Shown here: piece by piece, positions 5,496 to 57,018 of the stretch
Layout of the letters: every line of letters begins with the position of its first letter
How positions within the stretch are numbered: the stretch's first letter is position 1
NCBI GenBank assembly: GCA_030295235.1
Contig: AP026162.1
Span: 744,001-808,000, forward strand
DNA: 64,000 bases
Origin: Fistulifera solaris
Lineage: Eukaryota; Bacillariophyta; Bacillariophyceae; Naviculales; Stauroneidaceae
Direction of reading: 5' to 3'
Notes under the pieces: generated by a model
Databases searched by the model: none
The model's input: the letters and a program-made list of their open reading frames with translations, nothing else
Told to the model about the DNA's origin: nothing
Translations under genes and position numbers: made by a program

Positions 5496-7286
5496 ATGGC
5501 GACTATATCAAGGAAAAAGAAATCGCGGTCTTCGACACCAAATTCCATCTACGTGATGGGCATTTTGTGTCTCTTTGTGTGCGTTCTCCTCGCCTTCGTT
5601 ATGATCATTACGGTCGATAACAGCCTTGAGGAAGGAAAAACAACACACGAGTTAAATAATGTCTTGGAACAAGACGCGCCGGGGATTCGAAAGAGTCTCA
5701 AATCCGCGGTCCTACAAGAACGATTTCGTTTACGAAAGGCACTCGAAACCATGGCCGAAGGAAAAATACCGCCCCGATTGAAAGCACTTCGCGAAAAAGG
5801 TCAAATAGTGGGAGAACGTTTAGCAGAAGTTCGTTCCGGTAAAGAAACAGTCCCCGAAATATTGCAAGGAGAAGGAAGTGATGGACAGCCACCCAAGTCC
5901 GAAACGTTGATCGACAAGCCGCCCATTGAGTTGAACGAAATCATTCAATATCTAGATTCCTGGATTCACACTTTGCACGAAGTGTTGTTGGAACACAAAC
6001 ACGCTACATTCGAAGGCATTTGGCAAGCATACCATGATTTGACCGTCAAAACGCTCTATCCGTGGGACCGAGAATATTTGCAGCGGATGCCTCCCCGTCG
6101 TGACGATGGCTCGATTTTTCTTTCCGTCGCCACTTATCGCGATGAAAACTGCTTCAATACAATTTACAACGCGTACGGGAAAGCCAAGAATCCAGAAAAG
6201 CTCTTTGTCGGTCTCGTGCAACAAAACTGTCACGAAAATTGCAAGTCGGGAGTGCTCAGCAATCTGACCATGGTCGATGTACCGCCGGACGATGACTGCC
6301 AAAAATTATTCTGTGAATCAGACTTGGGAAAATATTGCGATCAGATTCGTGTTTTGAACATCAACGAACCGGAATCTCTCGGACCGTACGCGGCGCGCTA
6401 TTTTACCAGCAAGCTGTGGTATGGCGAACCGTGGTTCATGCAAATTGATGCGCACATGACGTTTGCGACACATTGGGATTCGATTAGTATCGAGATGCTC
6501 AAAGCGTGTCCCGCTCCCAAGCCGGTCTTGTCACACTATCCGCCTTCGCACACGGTCGATTTGGACAAACGAACCAAGCTACCAACCAGTCGTCTTTGTG
6601 GGCCCGTATTTGCGACATCGGACCTTGAATCACAAATCATCCGCCTAGAAGGAGCGGCTGTGTACGACAAGGACAAGGCTCCACTGCCTTGTTTCGCGCC
6701 ATTCACTGCGGCTGGATATTTCGTGGCTCACTCCGACTTCCTTCGAGAAGTACCGTTCGATCCGTTTTTACCGTGGATTTTCATGGGAGAAGAGATTATC
6801 ATGAGCAGTCGTCTGTGGACGGCCGGATACGACATCTTTGGTCCCAATCAAGCCGTTGTCGGACACATGTGTAAACCCGGGGCTTGTTGAAGGCTTTATC
6901 TGTTAATATCTCATCCATTTGTATCTCGTATTACAGACGTGCGCCGTCACAAACCCAAATTTTGGGAATCGGTACATCGAATGTTCACGAATGGTGTCCA
7001 CAATCCGCTTCAAGCGATGGTCTTGGATCGAGTCAAGTATCAACTTGGGTATCCGGAATCGGCAAGAGACATGCTTCCGCATAAGAGTATCTTGACGGCG
7101 GTCGATCACTATACTATGGGGACGGCTCGTCCCCTAGAAGAATACCTTCGACTTGTGGGTCTCAACATGACAACAAAAGAGGTAACGTACACTGGGTGGT
7201 GCGAAGAGGGTACACCTCCACCAGGATTTGAACAATACAATCACCTATATCCTGGCAAGGCGAATATGAGATTCAAAGGTAACTGA
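5496..7286 (+). CDS. Membrane-anchored GT60-type (Skp1-like) polypeptide GlcNAc transferase
   Basis: Two exons, 5496-6870 and 6937-7286, encode 574 residues. The 66-nt GT-AG intron falls inside a Tyr codon and restores the family motif GHMYVRRHKPKFWES. A basic cytoplasmic stretch (RKKKSRSS) and one membrane segment near residues 18-40 make it type II. The lumenal catalytic domain starts near SIFLSVATYRDENCFNTI and carries the metal-site motif MQIDAHMTF and the GAAVYDKD / PCFAPFTAAGYFV region. Family GT60 includes the Dictyostelium enzyme that puts GlcNAc on hydroxyproline of Skp1; that one is cytosolic, so a Golgi substrate is likelier here (inference). The ATG at 5496 is the first in frame; the open frame upstream depends on TTG. 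The 3' end lies 19 bases from the convergent DUF6544-like gene. Confidence 0.85.
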
Positions 7287-23828: not shown

Positions 23829-26498
23829 TCATACACTCTCAAGATAATCGAATGATCTTTCGATTCCTTGAATCAGATTGCTTTCCTGGACTGGTCTATG
23901 ATGCACACCTGTCGAGTGAAAGTCGGTGGTTTGTTGATTATGCTGGCTAAAGATGTGAATCTGTTTACTTTCATTTTTTCTGCTAGCTCCACCGCCATGC
24001 AGGCGACACAGTTGTCTTTTTCCAATAGCCACGCGATTGCAACCCTCTAATTTGCAGCGGACACCGCCTCCATGAGCGGCACAAAAATTTGTCCGACCCC
24101 GAGCTACTTTATCACAATCTGGTTGAGCACACTTCTTACCACCGCCATGCTTCACACAAAATTGGGTCGAAGACTGCGCAGACTTATCGCAACCTTCGAC
24201 AGAACAACGCCTTCCTCCACCATGAGCTGTGCAAAACTTAGATCCTCCTACAGCCGACTTAGAACAACCATCATGAATACACCGTTTTCCACCGCCATGG
24301 GCTGCACAGAAGAACTTATCACGCGCTCCCTTGTCACATCCTTGAAAAGTGCACCTCCGTCCTCCTCCGTGGGCGATGCAGAAGCGAGTAGATCCTTGGG
24401 CGCACTTAGAGCAGCCTTCATGCTCGCAAAGACGAGTCCCGCTGTGTTTCATACAATGAGGTCTTCGGGGCACAGCGATCTCTGAACAACCCTGTATGCG
24501 ACACATTTTTGCCGAATAATCGGGAATCATCACCGCAGAGCAATATTGACTGTTTAGAGCAACGTTGTTTACTTGACCATACACCAAAGGCCCCGATACA
24601 AATTCTTGAGATTGTTCCGAACCAAGCGACTGTGTCGAAGTCGACAAGGACGCTGAACGTTGATACACGTTAACGTTCATTGGTGAGTAGTCTTGACGGT
24701 CGACCTGTGGGCTGCGCTTGCCAGGGAGCGACTCAGCTGCACTGACTACTTTAGACGGCAAACGGTTGGGTTGGGACAAAGGAGCAGGGACACGGTTCAA
24801 AACATGCGCACGTTTCGTTCCCTCCACATTTGTATACATGTGATCAAAAGGAACAGCTGATCTGAAAGACAATAATGCATCCGAGACATGCTCATGAACA
24901 GTAGCATTGATTGGATTAGGATTCAAGTCCTCTTCCGTGAAGCCCAAGATTTTCATTTGCACAGTTAAAGGATAATTCTGATCATCGTTGGTTTCAAACT
25001 GATGTTCGGGAGTCGACATGGAATTATGCGGGCGCTTCTTCGACATAAAATGGTGCTGCATCTCGATATCCGCAGCCATCTCACCCAGATCTGCCGGTGC
25101 AACTCCGCTCCAAATTGTCTTATCGACGCTTTCATGAGGTTCGACTTTATCAAGGCCATCCCAAAGAAGGCGCAGAGCTTGCTGCACGAATTTCAAAACA
25201 AATGGCACAGACGCAGACTTTACTAACGAGTAGCACACCACTACACAAGATGGAGTCTTCCTTTTTCCCGCAAAAACGGGAACGGCGAGGACAGTTTGAA
25301 TCTTCGAGAAGACAAAGGCATCCGCGCGCATCGGGTCCGCGAATACATTAGGGTTGGCAGTCCAAACCGGATTCCCAGAAGCAAAAGCTCTACCCACGGC
25401 CCCTGTCCAATGCTTAATCAGCTTGTTTGTAGAGCACTTCCTGAACTCATTCAGCAACTCATTCGTTTCTGTACATGTTGCTGACATGCAAAGACTGAGA
25501 CTGTCGCTGTGATTACTATCGGGTACCCACACTTCAGCAAGGTCGAAGACCGACATGCCAAGAAAAGCATGGCAGAACTCTTCTAGTCTTTGGATTCGAG
25601 AAGGTTGCATCAATGAGATATCGTCCCCTATATACCCCGAATCCCTTTGCTGCGTCTCACGGTCACTGATATCAAAGACGCTAGCATATTCGGTGTCGTC
25701 TTCTATGCTTGTAACCGGCTTGTCCATAATAGTAGTCCAGACACCATAAGTTGCTTCATCAAAGGCATCGATTGGCTCGTCAGCGACTGTCCCACCGATT
25801 TCAGCAAAGGACGGTAGCATCGGAATACCGAAATCGTCTTTCGGCGCAGATTGTAAGTCATGATCATGGCTCAGGTCTGGCTCAAATTTTGTAACGGTAC
25901 CAGATCTCCTATCAATATCAGTAATTGATACAAATCGAGCGTTGACACCATCACCTAACAGATTTTGACCAGCGTTCCGCCCCAACGCCACAAGTGCTTG
26001 CTGACTGACCGTACTTGGGCCGATTTGTCGCATACCTGTTTGAACAGGATCAAAAGCAGGAAGTAAACAAGGGATCGATGTTGTTGCCGCACTCTGACTC
26101 AGTGACCGTAGAAAATCAAGCGCATCCTCCGTACTCTGAATATTGTTGGGGGAAAACATCACCACGACGCACATGTTTCCATTCGCATCCACTGCCACGG
26201 GCATTCCCACTGCTGTTTGTAAAACGACATCTGATCGTCCCGTCAGTCCCTCCTGTTTCTTTGTGGTTGCCCATACGACTTGCGCCGTAGAAGAGATAGC
26301 ATTTACGAGTCGAGGCGATAAGACATGCTCCGAAACCTCTGCTTCACTATCGTTCTTATCATTCCATGAATGATCCGGAGGATTAATCAGCTCCGCCCGA
26401 TGACTTTCAAAGTTTTTTGACGTGTACAATTGTACGAAACGGAGTTGCCTTCTTCCTTGACTTCTTGCTAAAGCACTATCTTGATCCTCTGCATTCAT
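23829..26498 (-). CDS. GAF-like protein with seven tandem CX4C zinc repeats (WRKY19-like zinc finger family)
   Basis: An intact 889-residue protein. Two stretches resemble GAF sensor folds: one with GRSDVVLQTAVGMPVAVD and MCVVVMFSPN, one with GAVGRAFASGNPVWTAN and IQTVLAVPVF. The last 190 residues hold seven zinc units of about 24-25 residues of the form CxxxGCxKxAxxxxxFCxxHGGGxRC, for example RCTFQGCDKGARDKFFCAAH. Such arrays are frequent in oomycetes and diatoms and are named after a domain next to plant WRKY19 proteins; their role is unknown, with nucleic-acid or protein binding assumed. A regulator that couples a small-molecule or redox sensor to a zinc array is an inference. The start ATG at 26498 is clear, and its 3' end faces that of RecQ across 124 bases. 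Confidence 0.8.
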   Translation of the reverse strand: MNAEDQDSALARSQGRRQLRFVQLYTSKNFESHRAELINPPDHSWNDKNDSEAEVSEHVLSPRLVNAISSTAQVVWATTKKQEGLTGRSDVVLQTAVGMPVAVDANGNMCVVVMFSPNNIQSTEDALDFLRSLSQSAATTSIPCLLPAFDPVQTGMRQIGPSTVSQQALVALGRNAGQNLLGDGVNARFVSITDIDRRSGTVTKFEPDLSHDHDLQSAPKDDFGIPMLPSFAEIGGTVADEPIDAFDEATYGVWTTIMDKPVTSIEDDTEYASVFDISDRETQQRDSGYIGDDISLMQPSRIQRLEEFCHAFLGMSVFDLAEVWVPDSNHSDSLSLCMSATCTETNELLNEFRKCSTNKLIKHWTGAVGRAFASGNPVWTANPNVFADPMRADAFVFSKIQTVLAVPVFAGKRKTPSCVVVCYSLVKSASVPFVLKFVQQALRLLWDGLDKVEPHESVDKTIWSGVAPADLGEMAADIEMQHHFMSKKRPHNSMSTPEHQFETNDDQNYPLTVQMKILGFTEEDLNPNPINATVHEHVSDALLSFRSAVPFDHMYTNVEGTKRAHVLNRVPAPLSQPNRLPSKVVSAAESLPGKRSPQVDRQDYSPMNVNVYQRSASLSTSTQSLGSEQSQEFVSGPLVYGQVNNVALNSQYCSAVMIPDYSAKMCRIQGCSEIAVPRRPHCMKHSGTRLCEHEGCSKCAQGSTRFCIAHGGGRRCTFQGCDKGARDKFFCAAHGGGKRCIHDGCSKSAVGGSKFCTAHGGGRRCSVEGCDKSAQSSTQFCVKHGGGKKCAQPDCDKVARGRTNFCAAHGGGVRCKLEGCNRVAIGKRQLCRLHGGGASRKNESKQIHIFSQHNQQTTDFHSTGVHHRPVQESNLIQGIERSFDYLESV

Positions 26499-27283: not shown

Positions 27284-30200
27284 TCAATTAGTCGGTTGTT
27301 GCAAAGCTGATATCTGCTCTTCAACTATGTTCCGAGCCATACCAACAGGTAAGGCAAAATGATCCTCTTCCATTTCGAAACCGCCACCCCAACTCATTAG
27401 ACCATCCACAAGGCTTTGCATAGAGGCGCTCATTGCGCCACTTTCTCCTCTATTTGTTTCTTCTTTGTCTTGCTCAAAGTCAGGAACATCGTGGATGCCC
27501 GCTTCTTGGTTTGACTCATCAAAAATGGGGGACGCAGTGACAAGCGGCAGGAAAGAGTCGTTATATGATACAGCATCACTCTCGCCTGCGCTGGCGTCGA
27601 CTTTTACTGACAAAACTTTGTGATCAACAGCAACTATTGTTGGAGGCAACATGTCGTTGCCTGGGGCAAGTGGATTCTCAAATATTCGCACAGAGACCTC
27701 GTCATAGTCAGCACTAGCATTTGAACTTCTAGATGGAGACCCTTGGCTGTTCCGATCTGTCATCGGAGACGCCGCAACTGTTCTCTCCTTCATCGACGGA
27801 ATGACCGGGGATACAATAAACCCATCCCGTAGGGTTGACCATGCATCAACAGATCTTCGCGCTGCTTCATGCTGAAGCTTGGCATACGATAAACATGCGT
27901 TAAGCATTTCCCTTTACGGTGAATGTTCCAGCATTTCACATCATGAGCGAGGGCCAGCGCTGCTCGTCTTTTCACCGAATTAGCTTCGTGTTCAATGACG
28001 GCGGCATGAATCGCATGACTCTGAGATATGGACGCTCTTGTCTGCGCAGCTCTTGCCTCATCTATGGACGAAAACTCTCCGTTTTCACATACAGATTGAG
28101 CAGAGAAGGCAGCGGCACTAGCGGCTGCTTTTGCGCTGGAGGCGGTCTTTGACGCGCGAACCGCCTTACGGACATCTTCAGCTGCTGCCACGGCCGAAGC
28201 AGCTAGCGAAGCCTGCCACGAGAGGTCTATAATACACAAAGTTAAATCCGAGTCAAAGAATGCTCTTGTTGATGCAAATGGACACAGTCACACAACGTAC
28301 CATCAATGAACGCAAGGTCGCTCTCTTCATACACCTCTCGGCTCTGACCAATACCAGGGACGCTCTTCATTAATGATCTTTGAGAAACAAAACGACCTCT
28401 CATTCCTTCCCACGAATCAAAACCTCCAACGATCTCTAAATGTTTCGACTGTCTTTCCTTTTGGGCTTTTCCGATTCTCCCGACGCTTACCAAGCATCGC
28501 GTCAGAGTGCTATCGACAGAACCAATTACTTCTCGGAGTTTATCTATATTTTCATCGACTGATATGTCTCCAAGAAAGGCAGAAGCGCCATCATCATCGT
28601 TGTGAGCCTCCAAAGCAAAGCCCCTTTCATCAAACCCCGTCCCGTAATGAAAGCGTTCTTCTTTCCCTGTGTTCGTTAGAACTTGACCGTGCCTGCTTCC
28701 AGCTGAAAGTATTCGACGCTCTGGAGCAGGTACTGGGAGCGGTAATAAGTCATAGCCATCTTCACCATCAACGTTGATAACCCCATCTTCAAAATCATTA
28801 CCGGCACATGCAGATAAAGGGAACGAACTATCTTCGATTGAGGAGTGAGCTAGTTGTTGAGCAAAGGTTTCATCCTCTTCGCGACCAATACCTCTTCCAA
28901 ATGTCGGCAAGGAGGCGTGCTGGAGCTTTGCACTAGCTGACTGAAGACCTGTTGTTTCCAACATTCCATGTACTTTCAAAGCCATTGCAGCCTGAGCTGC
29001 GGTCCTCACCCACGCAAAATTGGACAGCTCGGGCGAAACGCACGTCCAGGCCATCGACTTGTCGTCGCCGCCTACTTTGGGCGCATGATGACTCCTCTCC
29101 TTTGTAAGACGATGACACTCCGCAAGAGCAACCTTCGCAGCTTCTAAGCCAGACTGGCTTGCCTGGAAAGAGCAGATGTAAGCTTAAAGTCGTGCCTCAG
29201 AATTCTCCGCGTGCAGCAACTTACCTGTAAGATAGTGTTCAAAGGAAAAGACGTTGATAGCGCTGGATGCTCCAATAAGAAGTTCAGGTATCGTTCCAGT
29301 TGACGGCCCTTAAACACCGGTGAATTAGGATTGTAGTAGCTTTCAGGAATGGACGTCGAAGTAATGGTCGCGTTCTTCTTTGTAGACTTTTTGTGTGAGA
29401 CAGTCTGACCAGGTTTTTCATCGTGCATCATTGGATTTGCATTCGGCAACGACGATGGACTTGATTCACTAAATGAGGCAAATATTGACTTGGCAACATC
29501 ACGAACAATACCGACGCTAGCAGCGGCAGCGTTAATTGCACCACCCGTTTTCTTTATCGACGCATTGATTACCGAATCCTCTTTCTGGAAATGCGATGCA
29601 AGGCTGCCACCAGCGGTCTGCGAGCCACCTGGAAAAGGAGGAAGAATTCTACCACACAGTGTTCCGCCTAAGACTTTATGCGAAGCAAATGTATCGTCTA
29701 GCCACTTCAAATCCTCCATCGAGCGTCTTACTACCACCTCGTCGTGTGTGGTGTCTGATGGCTTTATGAACGTCAGCGCAAATTCTAAGGCTTTTGTTGA
29801 AGGGGCTTTCCCAACATTGGTCGGAAGAAACGTAGTTGGATGCTGAGTTCCGAAAAGAGATACCTTGACACGACCGCTTGTTCTGTAAGTCGCTTGATGT
29901 TTCGCAAGGTCATGAGCTGCCACAAGACTATGATCAAGATCCAATTCCGGCAAGGGCAAAGGTGTTTTATTCATCCGCTCGTAGTCCGCTAATTGTGCAA
30001 CGGATAAAGGCACCGGAGGATCAGCAGGCGGAACATCGATCATAACAACTTCACTGCCGCGAGGAGCATTGCGATGTCGCATAGTTTGTTGCAAGTGTCG
30101 AGCGGAGAACCTTCGTTTCGCCTCCAAATACTGTGCCAGAGCGACCATGCGACAAAAGACGAGCCATCCCTCAATACCGATAAGTTCAGGTTCTTCTTTT

Positions 30201-30586
30201 CGGGATGAATCAAGACCGCATTCACTTGAATTACATGCCGACAGCACGACTGCTTGCCATATCTCAGTGAATGTCATACTGCCTCTGTTCTTCGTCTCTC
30301 CCGTCAACTCTAGCCGACGCAAGTCATCGTCTCGCCTCCAGAATACAGGACACCGTAAGAGAGCAAACTCACGAACGCTCTCTCGAGTAACCCATCCCCG
30401 ATTTTCAGTATCCACAATAGCGAATAAATTCTGAGCAAACTCCAAATCGCGCCGACAAAAGACGAGCCGGTGAAAGCTATCCATTTCCGGAACTCGAATA
30501 TGAATGACGTACGGAGAGTCTAGGCTTTCATTTTCCCGGACCAACTGTCCGCGATGAGGCAAGTAGCGAGTAGATTCGGTCGTCAT
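27284..30586 (-). CDS. Sorting-nexin-like protein: EF-hand/EH-like, PX and BAR-like domains
   Basis: Three exons: 29225-30586, 28301-29162 and 27284-28226, with introns of 62 and 74 nt. The N-terminal part has an EF-hand/EH-like unit (FAQNLFAIVDTENRGWVTRESV). The PX domain follows: RRSMEDLKWLDDTF, then GRILPPFPG, and after an insertion of about 90 residues GRQLERYLNFLLEHPAL. PX domains bind phosphoinositides on endosomes. The C-terminal part resembles a BAR helix bundle, with an Ala-rich stretch (AASAVAAAEDVRKAVRAS) and the signature SYAKLQHEAARRSVDAWSTL, which bends membranes in sorting nexins. The frame breaks at GGG (forward CCC 27910-27912) between WNIHRK and MLNACLSYAK; a fourth G restores it. 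ATG 30586 is the first in frame; TTG opens the frame upstream. Confidence 0.8.
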
Positions 30587-31130
30587 TAATCGTAATTGCA
30601 ACAAAATGTCGAGCGGCGAAGCTCTCTTGCTTTGAGTTCTTTTACTTGCGATACGCAACCTTTGAAGAAATCAAATGCACCTCCGTGCATCAAACCAGTC
30701 AGACACGTCGCAACTCGATTTCTCGATGGTTCAGCGTTGACGATAAAGGTAAAATGTTACGTGATGGGTAGAGGAGTAGCACGTCACAGTTTTGAACGCT
30801 TGCGAAGAAACTTTGACCCGCTTGATTGAAACAAAACGTCACAACCACTAAACTTGTAACTCCCCCTTTAAATAAATTTGGAGCAACTCGTATTATCAAG
30901 ACGATATGATCACTCCACTTGTTTCAGGCAACGTCTTTCGCCAGAAAGAACTTGACCGTGAAGTTCGTTCGAAGTTCGAAATGGGTTCTGTCGTGTGTTG
31001 TTGTCATTCCGCGCGTGAGTTCTCGGTTCTGCAACCATCTTGAATCTTTGACGACTCGTGATTCGCACTATAAAATCGATACAGAAGAAGTTCTGACGTT
31101 TGGTTTTTGAGTCCCTCGAGGGGAAGAATC

Positions 31131-31655
31131 ACAGGAAATCTGGGAACGTTGTATTTACGCTGGTCCACAAAATCTGGACCACCGGTACTTTCAGGTTTCC
31201 AGGAAATCTGAGAGAGAGGTGTTACACGTGGTCCAGTAAATCTGGACCAGCTGTATTTTCACGTTTCCAGGAAATCTGGGATTGTGGTACTTACACTGCG
31301 GTTCAGATAATTTGGAACAGTTGTTTTTCACGTTCCTAGGAAATCTGGGAATGTGGTATTTACATTGGTCCAGAAAATCTGGACCAGCTGTATTTTCAAG
31401 CTTACAGGAAATCTGGAGGAGTAGCATTTACAATTGTCCAGAAAATCTGGACCAAATGTATTTTCACACTCTCAGGAAATATGGAAGTGTGGTTTGAGTG
31501 GTCCAAAAAATCTGGACCTGTAATACTTTCACGTTTCCAGGAAAGCTGGGTGTTTGGTGTTGGTTTTGGTCCAGAAAATCTGGACCTATTGTATTTTCAC
31601 GTTCCCAGGAAATCTGGAGGGCCGTGATTTCCCCTTGTCCGACATTTCCTCCGCA
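31131..31655. repeat. Tandem array of about 7.7 units, 66-69 bp each, with nested inverted repeats
   Basis: Unit starts (CAGG/TAGG of CAGGAAATCTGG) fall at 31132, 31200, 31268, 31337, 31405, 31473, 31539 and 31606. Each unit holds two short dyads: CCAG-GAAAT-CTGG and, about 35 bases on, GGTCCAGA-AAA-TCTGGACC. Spacer sequence between dyads varies while the dyads are mostly kept. The length is not a multiple of three and no shared reading frame exists. It lies between the divergent sorting-nexin and CSN4 genes, ending about 135 bases before the CSN4 start. Confidence 0.9.
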
Positions 31656-31791
31656 GAAACGCCACAAATCATAATCCTCATTGCAAAGCAATAACGACCC
31701 TCAAGCTTTCTGTATCCCTTTGTTTGTTTCTCATCTAATCCGTTAAAAGCTTAATTTGTGTAATCAAAAGTGAAGCTATTTGTTGTATAAA

Positions 31792-32991
31792 ATGGAGAAT
31801 CTAACGCGTAAAATTCAGAGCGCTATTCAAACGAACGACTTTGCCACCATCACGTCCGTCTTTACCGGATTCGGTCCCGACTCGTGGCAGAATGTCGGGC
31901 AGGGTGAGCAGCGATCATTAGCGTCCGATTTTATTTGTCAAGCGGTGGCGAATCCTAACTTTCTAGAGCAAGCGGTGAAACATCCCGAAATGGAGCAAAC
32001 CTTTTTGCAAGCGCTGGGTCATCTTCCCGCGACTGTCCCGAATGCCTCCGATAACACACTGCGTCAAGCATTGTTTGATGCGAAAGTCAATGCCGATGAT
32101 GCGGATTACTCCGGCGCTGCTCGCATTCTCGGTGGGATGCGCATGGACGATGATACGAATTCAGTGTATTATACTTCAAAAGTAGCCAAGGCGGAAATTT
32201 ATGTGAAAATTGCCGAATGCTTTCTGGCCGAGGATGAGATCGCGGAGTCCGATTCTGCCGTCAACAAAGCTGGAAGTGCGGTCGAATCACTTTCGACAGA
32301 AGAAAAAGAAGGACAAAGCGCGCTACTTTTGCGCTACAAGAGCACTACGGCTCGTGTACTTGATGCCAATCGAAAGTTTCTGCAAGCTGCCTCGCGATAT
32401 CATGAACTCAGTCAATCATCGTCCGATCTGCTTGACGCAGAAGAATTGCTACACTTTTTAGGGCGCGCCACGACATGCGCTATTCTGGCACCGAGTGGTG
32501 GGCAACGACAACGAGTTCTGGGGCACTTGTACAGGGACGAGCGCCTATCGGAGCTCGACCGCCTTTCGGACTTCTGCACGCACGCAAAGATTGTGCGCAA
32601 GATGTACCGCCACCAGATCTTGCAAGCTTCTGAATTGAAGCAGTTGGAAGAATCATTGGATCCGCATCAGAAAGCGATCATGGGCGACGGCTTGAGCATT
32701 TTGGAACGCGGCGTTGTTGAGCACAACATGGTTGCGGTGAGCAAGACGTATCGCTCGATCTATATTACCACCCTGGCTAAAATTTTGAATGTCGATGAGC
32801 GCCGAGCGGAGAAACTTGCTGCTAGTATGATTTTAGAGGGTTTTCTGCATGGCTCAATGGACCAGGTGAACGGGTTGCTAGAGTTCGACGCAGAAGAGCC
32901 CACTGAAGTGGCTTGGGACCGTTCGCTGTTGAGCTTCTGCTCGGAACTGAATCGTGTTATTGATGCTATTAAAGTCCGCACTACTACGTAG
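31792..32991 (+). CDS. CSN4: COP9 signalosome subunit 4
   Basis: A 399-residue intact single-exon protein, close to the usual 400. Helical repeats are followed by family signatures: YVKIAECFLAEDE, ARVLDANRKFLQAASRYHEL, CAILAPSGGQRQRVLGHLYRDER, LDPHQKAIMGDGLSILERGVVEHN and a PCI winged helix ending in EKLAASMILEGFLHGSMDQVNGLLEF. CSN4 is a PCI subunit of the COP9 signalosome, which removes NEDD8 from cullins and so resets SCF-type ubiquitin ligases. The start ATG at 31792 is the first in frame (TTG codons open it earlier). It is divergent from the sorting-nexin gene, with a tandem repeat array directly upstream. Confidence 0.93.
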   Translation: MENLTRKIQSAIQTNDFATITSVFTGFGPDSWQNVGQGEQRSLASDFICQAVANPNFLEQAVKHPEMEQTFLQALGHLPATVPNASDNTLRQALFDAKVNADDADYSGAARILGGMRMDDDTNSVYYTSKVAKAEIYVKIAECFLAEDEIAESDSAVNKAGSAVESLSTEEKEGQSALLLRYKSTTARVLDANRKFLQAASRYHELSQSSSDLLDAEELLHFLGRATTCAILAPSGGQRQRVLGHLYRDERLSELDRLSDFCTHAKIVRKMYRHQILQASELKQLEESLDPHQKAIMGDGLSILERGVVEHNMVAVSKTYRSIYITTLAKILNVDERRAEKLAASMILEGFLHGSMDQVNGLLEFDAEEPTEVAWDRSLLSFCSELNRVIDAIKVRTTT

Positions 32992-34451
32992 CCACTTCGA
33001 TCTTCTCGATGCAGTCCCTTTGCCTCGGTGATAGCAGATGTATCTGTGTCAGAGCTTTTGCGTAAATCCTTGGTTTCGACTCGGCTTTTAACACTAGGAT
33101 AATGCAGCTCTCTGTGAACAAGAAGAAATAACTGTGACAACAAGTAGCGTTTTATTTCGTAAAATATTTCATGTTACATGTGATCACCTCTAGACTAGCA
33201 GCATTTAGAATGATTAAATTTTGATTTCGAAAATCGTTTCTGATGGTGGTTCTAGGAACCACAACTACATATCACATACGAATGGATCAAGAAGAACAAG
33301 AGGCAACAGGAAGGCATCATTCCATGCACACATAGCCGAACGGATTTCACTTTTTTTTTGATCGTTCTTTATGTTGCTTCAAGGCTGCCGTGAATCCTTG
33401 AATTTCCACTATGAAACGGAGTGTTGGTTTACGCCAGCCAAGACTCAATTGTACAGTAGTCATGAACCGAACAACAAAGGGTTCCGTTTTGCGTCTCTCC
33501 CATCCGTCCATTGTCATTCAACTGCGAATACAATTATAATTACGGGTATATAAAGTCGCAACAATGATCATTCTAAACTACTTGTTAAAAGAGTTTCTTT
33601 TATTTTCACGTCGAAAATCCGAAGATCGACATCTTGCATTTCCACTATGATACGGAGTGTTGGTTTACGCCAGCCAAGACTGGATTGTCAGTGTACAGTG
33701 TACAGTAACCATGAAACATAATTGTTTTGTTTCCTAATGCGATGCCTTTCACAGAAACAAAACGTGGCCTTTGACATCACAACAAAGAACAAAGCAATGT
33801 CGACTTCATTACCATCCTTTGTTCGTCCTACTATACTAAATGGAATCAATAAACAGGTGTTTCTGCTTCGTTTTCTCTTTCACAGCGGCCAAAGCAACAA
33901 TCAACCGTCAAACATCTTCATTAAGTGTCACTTGTGGTCTATCCCTTGTTAATTGTTCATAGAAGCAGCAGTTTTATTAAAACTTGCCCAAGGCGGCCCA
34001 AGGGCCTTACCGGACGGGGTCAAAAGTTGAAAAAAAGAGCTTCGCCGAGGGTTGGAGATATCAAAGCCACGAACGCCACGTGCCGCGTCATTTGATCGAT
34101 GTCGCAGGTGTCAAGGTAACTTTAACTTGCTCTGTAGGACCCCTTTTCACGGTACTCACTGTTGAAGTAAGTGCGCCAAACAAGCCAAACAAGAGATGAT
34201 GGACGGACGAGTTTTGGTAGCATTTTTACGTACGGTGGCGCAGGTATCTTTTTCTGCGTTTTCTTGTCCCAACCTTGTCCTTTGGCGTTGCGAAAGTATA
34301 CCAGGTAAACTGGAATAAAACCGCGGAAGTTCGCCTCGTTGCTTTTGCATTCGAACATTCGCTTTGTAGAAAAGACCTTCGACCCTCCCGTCGGTGTACG
34401 ATAGCACTCTCGTCATTTTGTTTTGCCCTGGACCAAAGCAACAGCGCAATC
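32992..34451. other. Intergenic region with a long direct repeat
   Basis: About 1.46 kb without a supported gene. It contains a direct repeat pair (33403-33470 and 33639-33716), listed separately. Overlapping short frames on both strands near 34.0-34.4 kb look like chance openings upstream of the adenylate kinase gene. Confidence 0.5.
33403..33716. repeat. Direct repeat, two copies of about 68-78 bp, 236 bp apart
   Basis: TTTCCACTATGAAACGGAGT at 33403 recurs as TTTCCACTATGATACGGAGT at 33639. Both continue with GTTGGTTTACGCCAGCCAAG and end in ACAGTAGTCATGAAC or ACAGTAACCATGAAAC. The near identity suggests a recent duplication or constraint. Confidence 0.75.
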
Positions 34452-56287: not shown

Positions 56288-57018
56288 TCCGGGTTCCCCT
56301 CTGACGATAAATTTCCTTACTGGGGCCTACGTGAAACCTACGTAGACATGTAACCAGTTGCATCCTTCATCATCCTTTATTCGTTATTCGTATTGAGTTC
56401 GAATTGATGTCTAATGTCACCAATTGGCACTCGTCATCCATGGTAGAGAAAGTAAAGGTGTTTTTGGGGCAAGATGGACCCGAAAATGGTCGTGGTCAAA
56501 TTTTTCCATTTCCGGGTTCCCCCTCTGTCGATAAATTTCCTTACTGGGGCCTACGTGAAACCTACGTAGACATGTAACCAGTTGCATCCTTCATCATCCT
56601 TTATTCGTTATTCGTATTGAGTTCGAATTGATGTCTAATGTCACCAATTGGCACTCGTTATGCATGGTAGAGAAAGTAAAGGTGTTTTTGGGGCAAGATG
56701 GACCCGAAAATGGTCGTGGTCAAATTTTTCCATTTCCGGGTTCCCCCTCTGTCGATAAATTTCCTTACTGGGGCCTACGTGAAACCTACGTAGACATGTA
56801 ACCAGTTTGCATCCTTCATCATCCTTTATTCGTTATTCGTATTGAGTTCGAATTGATGTCTAATGTCACCAATTGGCACTCGTTATGCATGGTAGAGAAA
56901 GTAAAGGTGTTTTTGGGGCAAGATGGACCCGAAAATGGTCGTGGTCAAATTTTACCATTTCCGGGTTTCCCCTCTGTCGATAAATTTCCTTACTGGGGCC
57001 TACGTGAAACCTACGTGA
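56288..57018. repeat. Tandem array, about 3.3 copies of a 224-bp unit with ACGT palindromes
   Basis: TCCGGGTTCCCC-type starts lie at 56288, 56511, 56735 and 56960 (steps 223, 224, 225). Copies are nearly identical, differing by a few bases, so the array is young or homogenised. Each unit has GGGGCCTACGTGAAACC followed by TACGTAG, a dyad with two ACGT cores. It fills most of the divergent region between LAS1 and E(z), about 105-130 bases from each gene start. Confidence 0.92.

Follow-up and report, generated by a model that had tools for sequence, protein, structure and literature searches.

Conserved motifs in otherwise unlike satellites are already known from Meloidogyne, in which satellites share a CENP-B-box-like motif of 17 bp (PMC3694981) and centromeric repeat families carry a box of 19 bp (PMC9673304). 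Satellites sharing such a CENP-B-box-like motif are the nearest known kind to the tandem array that we describe here from the diatom Fistulifera solaris. As in the Meloidogyne accounts, unlike satellites share one short conserved motif of the size of a protein site, and the likeness extends to partly polyploid hybrid genomes and to short arrays of 19-bp-box repeats. The F. solaris motif, however, is a near-perfect dyad (the two motifs are likened here by description rather than letter by letter), and the classed F. solaris arrays are found at the 5' ends of genes, with a bias to one homoeolog, whereas the described link to the centromere stands on the Meloidogyne side. Euchromatic copies of the satellite TCAST1 of Tribolium castaneum are likewise situated near genes and were proposed to modulate these neighbours (PMC4537270, PMC5844308), but organism and sequence are different, and the constraint on a dyad and the presence or absence between homoeologs are features of F. 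solaris. The satellite-like arrays borne by Helentrons in the Pacific oyster (PMC7492417) are also short, tandem and dispersed genome-wide, whereas the extra DNA at one F. solaris locus pair (L014/L040) is, as judged by eye, array-like. Within F. solaris itself, the TABASTA promoter motifs differ between the subgenomes (PMC5935921), but TABASTA is a 7-base motif and the main-text passages on it do not mention a 19-base dyad.

Among the papers listed by our literature searches, none was seen to describe the 19-base dyad or a diatom satellite of this kind. To judge from these papers, it is new that such a satellite occurs in a diatom, that its motif takes the form of a dyad, that it prefers promoters and that promoters with and without it are paired in one nucleus. 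Whether satellites near genes have a function has long been asked, and the test is difficult because presence usually has to be set against absence in another species. In F. solaris both states are found in one nucleus, with an array on one chromosome and none on its homoeolog at 18 of 21 loci.

The array upstream of CSN4 and its genome-wide family

The array lies in the window, by which we mean the whole analysed stretch of 64,000 nucleotides, and was found where the original prediction had placed it: Tandem Repeats Finder reported 31132-31617/8 with a period of 68 (7.2 copies), also with a period of 133, and 31170-31549 with a period of 34 (11.2 copies). Read in register on the forward strand, the array (31131..31617, unit of about 68) consists of 15 dyads at steps of 31-36 bases, in which 8 dyads of type B (around CCAGGAAATCTGG) alternate with 7 of type A (around GGTCCAGAAAATCTGGACC). 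A 34-base step on which the two dyad types take turns describes it better. Two of the 7 A dyads are perfect 19-mers, identified by exact pattern search at 31367..31385 (dyad 4, C1:775367) and 31568..31586 (dyad 7, C1:775568). The others were placed by register reading; one arm is changed in dyads 1 (31162..31180, GGTCCACAAAATCTGGACC), 2 (31230..31248, GGTCCAGTAAATCTGGACC) and 6 (31500..31518), the first base is changed in dyad 5 (31435..31453), and dyad 3 (31300..31318) is degenerate. The repeated part ends at about 31617, and the ATG of CSN4 at 31792 is located 137 bases from 31655 and 175 bases from the last repeat. The neighbouring genes had been predicted to encode a sorting nexin and CSN4. 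The identity of CSN4 (COP9 signalosome subunit 4; 31792..32991, forward strand) is confirmed by the Pfam domains PCI and PSMD12-CSN4_N, while the 504-aa frame of the divergent neighbour (29144..30658, reverse strand) matched no Pfam family at E 0.001, leaving the sorting nexin without such support. Elsewhere in the window, an 889-aa frame (23829-26498, reverse strand) contains repeated C..C..H..HGGG zinc-finger-like motifs, as read by eye.

The original prediction had called for a search of the whole genome for the dyad. Across the 51.7-Mb assembly we counted 1104 exact copies of the dyad GGTCCAGA-N3-TCTGGACC, far more than chance would give, against 0 for the reversed control; the arrays that contain them come in several unit lengths. 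The 100 listed sites of the 1104 group into 21 clusters on contig C1, over a stretch of 1.84 Mb; 20 of these clusters were studied as 10-kb pieces (L-numbered loci) and the 21st is the window array. From 4.8 perfect dyads per cluster on C1, about 230 clusters are extrapolated for the whole genome. A DNA search with the window array gave at least 89 matches on 18 contigs, with 40 of 152 candidates scored. The steps between neighbouring dyads concentrate at 33-36, 19-20, 22-23 and 50-57 bases, which correspond to unit classes of about 68 (34+34), 53 (34+19) and 57 (34+23), and longer higher-order units, e.g. 207, 213 and 218, are also present. With a relaxed pattern, individual arrays yield between 4 and 47 dyad matches, whose spacing is often near 34 bases. 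The units are arranged head to tail in non-coding DNA, related arrays occur at many places among genes, and spacers vary among the unit classes while the dyad is constant, hence one motif is shared by otherwise different satellites of the 68, 53 and 57 classes.

Among the individual members, a 213-bp higher-order array in L018 (8794-9901) is about 98-99% homogeneous and is probably a recent expansion. A rare dyad variant with the centre ATG/CAT is found at C40:45771 and C49:45639, nearly equal coordinates, and is perhaps another array common to a homoeologous pair. A viral origin of the dyad was considered and rejected; five IMG/VR stretches carry one copy each, none with a second copy adjacent, and were taken as chance matches.

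Divergence of dyads and spacers

To measure divergence, units were aligned cyclically to the consensus of their own array. The dyad arms were less diverged than the rest of the unit in all 22 distinct arrays measured, namely 13 of a first set, 3 more from the 68-class set and 6 on contigs C7, C13, C17 and C32. The first set was drawn from 23 array entries; among the ten remaining ones, a simple unit was lacking or the entry was passed over, and L025 entered a later measurement. In the window array, differences from the array consensus affect 7.1% of arm positions versus 20.3% of spacer positions. In the 68 class, ten arrays were measured on 131 of their 145 units, namely those with at least 45 letters (7 of the 10 arrays also belong to the first set), and the mean divergence of the arms was 0.44-fold that of the spacers, with ratios of 0.14-0.62. 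The arms were also slower in each of the six nearest relatives of the window array, those on C7, C13, C17 and C32, and the slower divergence holds for G/C and A/T columns separately. In the homogeneous 213-bp array L018b, the value was 0.992 for dyad columns versus 0.990 elsewhere, a margin of 0.002. The predicted retention of dyads over spacers is therefore seen in the window array as well as in the other 21, and equal divergence of the two, the result named beforehand as refuting it, was looked for and not found in the 22 measured arrays.

Circular shifts of the dyad position served as a control. For the pooled 131 units of the ten arrays, 0 of 68 shifts were as good as the true position, by the small margin of 0.094 versus 0.089 for the best shift. 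In single arrays, between 0 of 51 and 12 of 68 shifts equalled or bettered the true position; the figure was 6 of 66 for the window array alone, where the control is weak with 8 units, and L018b displayed no effect (89 of 212). Part of the spacer, TATTTTCAC, is also well conserved. Taken together, a short motif more conserved than the rest of its unit suggests that the dyads evolve under constraint.

On balance, we regard the array as a dispersed promoter satellite, biased to one homoeolog where tested, whose constrained dyads are putative sites of a dimeric protein, a reading built on sequence comparison. Each dyad would comprise two half-sites (GGTCCAGA, with the minimal core CAGA), both read by one dimeric sequence-specific DNA-binding protein, for which a host transcription factor, a domesticated transposase or a chromatin protein are candidates. 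Copies keeping these sites would be the ones retained or propagated. Because each dyad would offer two half-sites to a dimer and site-keeping copies would be retained, every array may place a ready-made cluster of putative sites (4 to 47 relaxed dyads) into a promoter. Dimer binding appears to be the best-supported cause of the constraint on the dyads and a selfish copying signal its main rival; the two would be compatible.

Presence and absence between homoeologous contigs

F. solaris, an oil-rich hybrid diatom with an allodiploid genome, is described as an allopolyploid with 42 homoeologous chromosome pairs (PMC5935921); the assembly consists of 61 contigs and has no one-to-one map onto this karyotype. 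One other copy of CSN4 was found, on contig C2 (C2:729767-730973), with 92% identical DNA. Upstream of this copy, alignment to the window extends to position 31116 (88.4%, 1661 columns) and resumes at 31692 (82.7%, 254 columns), so that the stretch 31117..31691 has no counterpart, and no dyads are present between the aligned flanks on C2. The dyads had been taken for a selected element of the CSN4 promoter, which finds no support here: since the homoeologous promoter is without the array, the array is not a conserved CSN4 element.

The homoeologous places on C2 of 18 more arrays were located with a joined probe of 18 gene pieces and those of two others through the DNA search with the window array. 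Of the 21 C1 arrays, 18 are missing on C2, 16 of them with both flanks aligned and 2 with one flank only (L020 and L023, absent in the C2 stretch examined); at L009 and L027 the right flank resumes on C2 only 1.3 and 3.0 kb beyond the array. Three arrays are common to both contigs, with dyad numbers of 6 and 30 (L015/L035), 33 and 8 (L019/L036) and 3 and 2 (L022/L046). The C2 gaps opposite C1 arrays mostly hold 47-671 bases of other sequence and clean empty sites are few, the cleanest being L014/L040, where the array-like appearance of the extra DNA extends from end to end. As all 21 arrays were ascertained on C1, presence and absence alone do not separate gain from loss. A second dyad in the C2 gaps, CAYGACTG..CAGTCRTG, was dropped as a counterpart because it is also present in C1; it is a further dispersed dyad in intergenic DNA of both contigs (L045, L046, L048, L049 and others).

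Two complete genome-wide lists (35 and 74 sites), which catch only dyads with certain letters, were used to count distinct arrays per contig pair, and they also define the scope within which C2 arrays missing from C1 were sought. They gave 12 arrays on C1 and 1 on C2, 3 on C15 and 0 on C16, 1 on C23 and 0 on C24, and 2 on C38 and 0 on C39, in sum 18 versus 1 over the four recognised pairs, where the pairing of C15/C16 and C23/C24 rests on the order of silicon transporters only (PF03842, 23 matches) and that of C38/C39 on one gene. The presence of silicon transporters points to a diatom, and a pattern for 18S rRNA had no match. PMC13276009 (2026) gives two guide targets for the two homoeologous apt genes of F. 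solaris; C39 has an exact match to one of them and C38 to the other. A third list of dyad sites, which reached as far as C13, was left out of the count. The dyad satellite is biased to one homoeolog of each testable contig pair.

Relative to genes, whose orientation was taken from codon-usage gene calls made in this analysis, 20 of the 21 C1 arrays could be classed (all except L027): 13 lie in divergent, 7 in same-strand and 0 in convergent gaps. A length-weighted draw from the array gaps plus 57 others, each 300 bases or longer, led us to expect 6.8 divergent positions (P 0.0038 for 13 or more), and the lack of any convergent gap had a P of 0.016. The classed C1 arrays prefer the 5' ends of genes, and the divergent promoter setting of the original prediction is borne out. 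The positional bias may be a bias of insertion, and the avoidance of convergent gaps could reflect insertion into open chromatin. Pfam families above the cut-off were assigned to 8 of 10 neighbouring frames, including metabolic enzymes, an RNA methyltransferase, Ku and thioredoxin.

Spacer identity between units was 0.727 within and 0.700 between arrays, and in a second set 0.779 within and 0.722 between. The flanks of homoeologous loci are mostly 82-94% identical (lowest 71%), values that include coding DNA and thus understate neutral divergence, and array units differ more from each other than these flanks do. Arrays may arrive already diverged, because their units are nearly as different within arrays as between them. 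On one reading, which we infer from these identities, the family would be old and already diverged arrays would have inserted in one lineage, rather than one founder having been amplified at each place; loss of arrays from C2 is the alternative to insertion in one lineage.

These data bear directly on a purely selfish satellite, which is possible although we consider it rather unlikely. Here the dyad would be the site of copying or inserting machinery, be it a transposase, a recombinase, or a cruciform from which break repair or rolling-circle excision is initiated, and dyads would look constrained since only intact copies propagate, with no gain for the host. The presence and absence between homoeologs, the unequal strict dyad numbers at shared loci (30 in L035 versus 6 in L015, 8 in L036 versus 33 in L019) and the near-equal differences within and between arrays all agree with such copying, as does the proposal that the conserved boxes at monomer junctions of Meloidogyne satellites promote rearrangement (PMC3694981). 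On the other hand, at five junctions read by eye, whose edges are decayed, no target-site duplication was recognisable, and no transposase was present among the ten neighbouring frames tested of the roughly 40 nearest. A block copy of the window array elsewhere, in register, was looked for and rejected, none of the registers being conspicuous in its six nearest relatives. Beside two other arrays, a 184-bp stretch that is 98% identical between L021 (5475-5655) and L023 (4512-4695) was noted, which in L023 is bordered on both sides by the repeat TGTTCTCGCATCGT (by eye) and is perhaps a separate small mobile element.

The putative binding of a dimer, our preferred reading, admits an extension that we regard as doubtful, in which a self-spreading operator satellite would have distributed site clusters for one dimeric regulator over many promoters of one parental genome, built a subgenome-specific regulon within the hybrid cell and helped to set which of two homoeologous genes is expressed. 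Expression data that resolve the homoeologs are already published (PMC5935921) and could show whether arrays shift expression. Furthermore, the dyad arrays are candidate markers for phasing the two parental genomes.

Compensation in the dyad arms and remaining explanations

Hairpin formation in RNA or single-stranded DNA, for instance as a source of small RNAs, might instead be what the dyads are kept for, an explanation that we judge improbable. Single 19-mers fold well, at -7 kcal/mol as DNA, and the whole window array as RNA reaches a folding z of -9.15 versus shuffles, but good folding is what any palindromic array would show, and a search of the window gave no Rfam match at gathering scores, on which ground a known RNA family was rejected.

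At 132 A-dyad positions (1029 pair comparisons) we counted 42 changes on the left, 32 on the right and 3 at both partners, and 0 of these 3 were complementary. By direct string search of 24 loci, 120 A dyads were intact, 55 had one change and 29 two changes; a G-T pair was left in just 9 of the 55 one-change dyads, and 0 of 6 double changes in the same pair were complementary. Among 282 core dyads, a wider set that includes types A and B, both partners were changed 3 times versus 2.3 expected. Two of these 3 were complementary, both in one B dyad of the L026 array (6716-7274), which reads CCGAAATTTTCGG for CCAGAATTTCTGG; in this one unit two neighbouring pairs are changed with the palindrome kept, the only compensated dyad found. 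Five copies in L026 share a double change that converts the half-sites to GTTCC and GATCC, which is a mismatch in a hairpin, yet falls at the same position in both half-sites. A tally of the 68-class arrays gave 27 double changes versus 10.2 expected, 13 of them complementary; these were rejected as within-type compensation, for 12 look like B half-units on A columns and 1 is a misalignment.

Paired differences do exist between the dyad types. The outer pair is T-A in A dyads and C-G in B dyads, and in L028 dyads with ACAGA..TCTGT and CCAGA..TCTGG differ in the same manner, a pattern also expected from a hairpin or from an inverted duplication. Compensating stem changes, the mark of a structured RNA, are thus lacking in A dyads, with the one compensated B dyad and the paired differences between types to the contrary. 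Half-sites read by a dimer are favoured over a hairpin because arm mutations are hardly ever compensated. Of the mechanisms originally proposed for the dyads, a bound dimer fits best, while the hairpin and the RNA structure are disfavoured on the same ground, with the L026 dyad as the exception.

Still less probable is a neutral minisatellite, the dyads of which would look conserved only through uneven mutation or homogenisation. Short arrays with strong turnover of copy number, an array absent from the homoeologous promoter between intact flanks and a shift control that is not significant for the window array alone are all consistent with neutrality, but this reading has to contend with arms that are slower in 22 of 22 arrays, in G/C and A/T columns alike, and with one dyad that persists across arrays of unlike spacers and unit lengths. 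Finally, a conserved cis-regulatory element of the SNX-CSN4 promoter or a unit of a holocentromere, suggested by the position in a divergent promoter and by the short Meloidogyne arrays with a conserved 19-bp box associated with CenH3 (PMC9673304), is very improbable, the former being already contradicted by the array-free homoeologous CSN4 promoter and the latter by 1 array on C2 versus 12 on C1 in the two complete lists, though C2 equally needs a centromere.

The window and the studied loci also contain other dispersed repeats. A second tandem family, with a unit of about 214, 224 or 428, is represented in the window at 56288-57016 and in L014 (6678-7162), L016 (2130-2541), L017 (8168-9901), L020 (5125-5856) and L025 (205-549). 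It has a well-kept block around TATCCGGGTT and CTACGTGAAA..ACGTAG amid drifting spacers, and its dyad CTACGT-6-ACGTAG, noticed by eye, was counted 4 times over 3 loci and was unlisted in a search for arms of at least 7. A third dispersed tandem family, with a unit of about 240 that is 72-91% alike between loci, occurs in the window at 33389-33688, in L016 (2576-3490) and in L024 (9251-9866).
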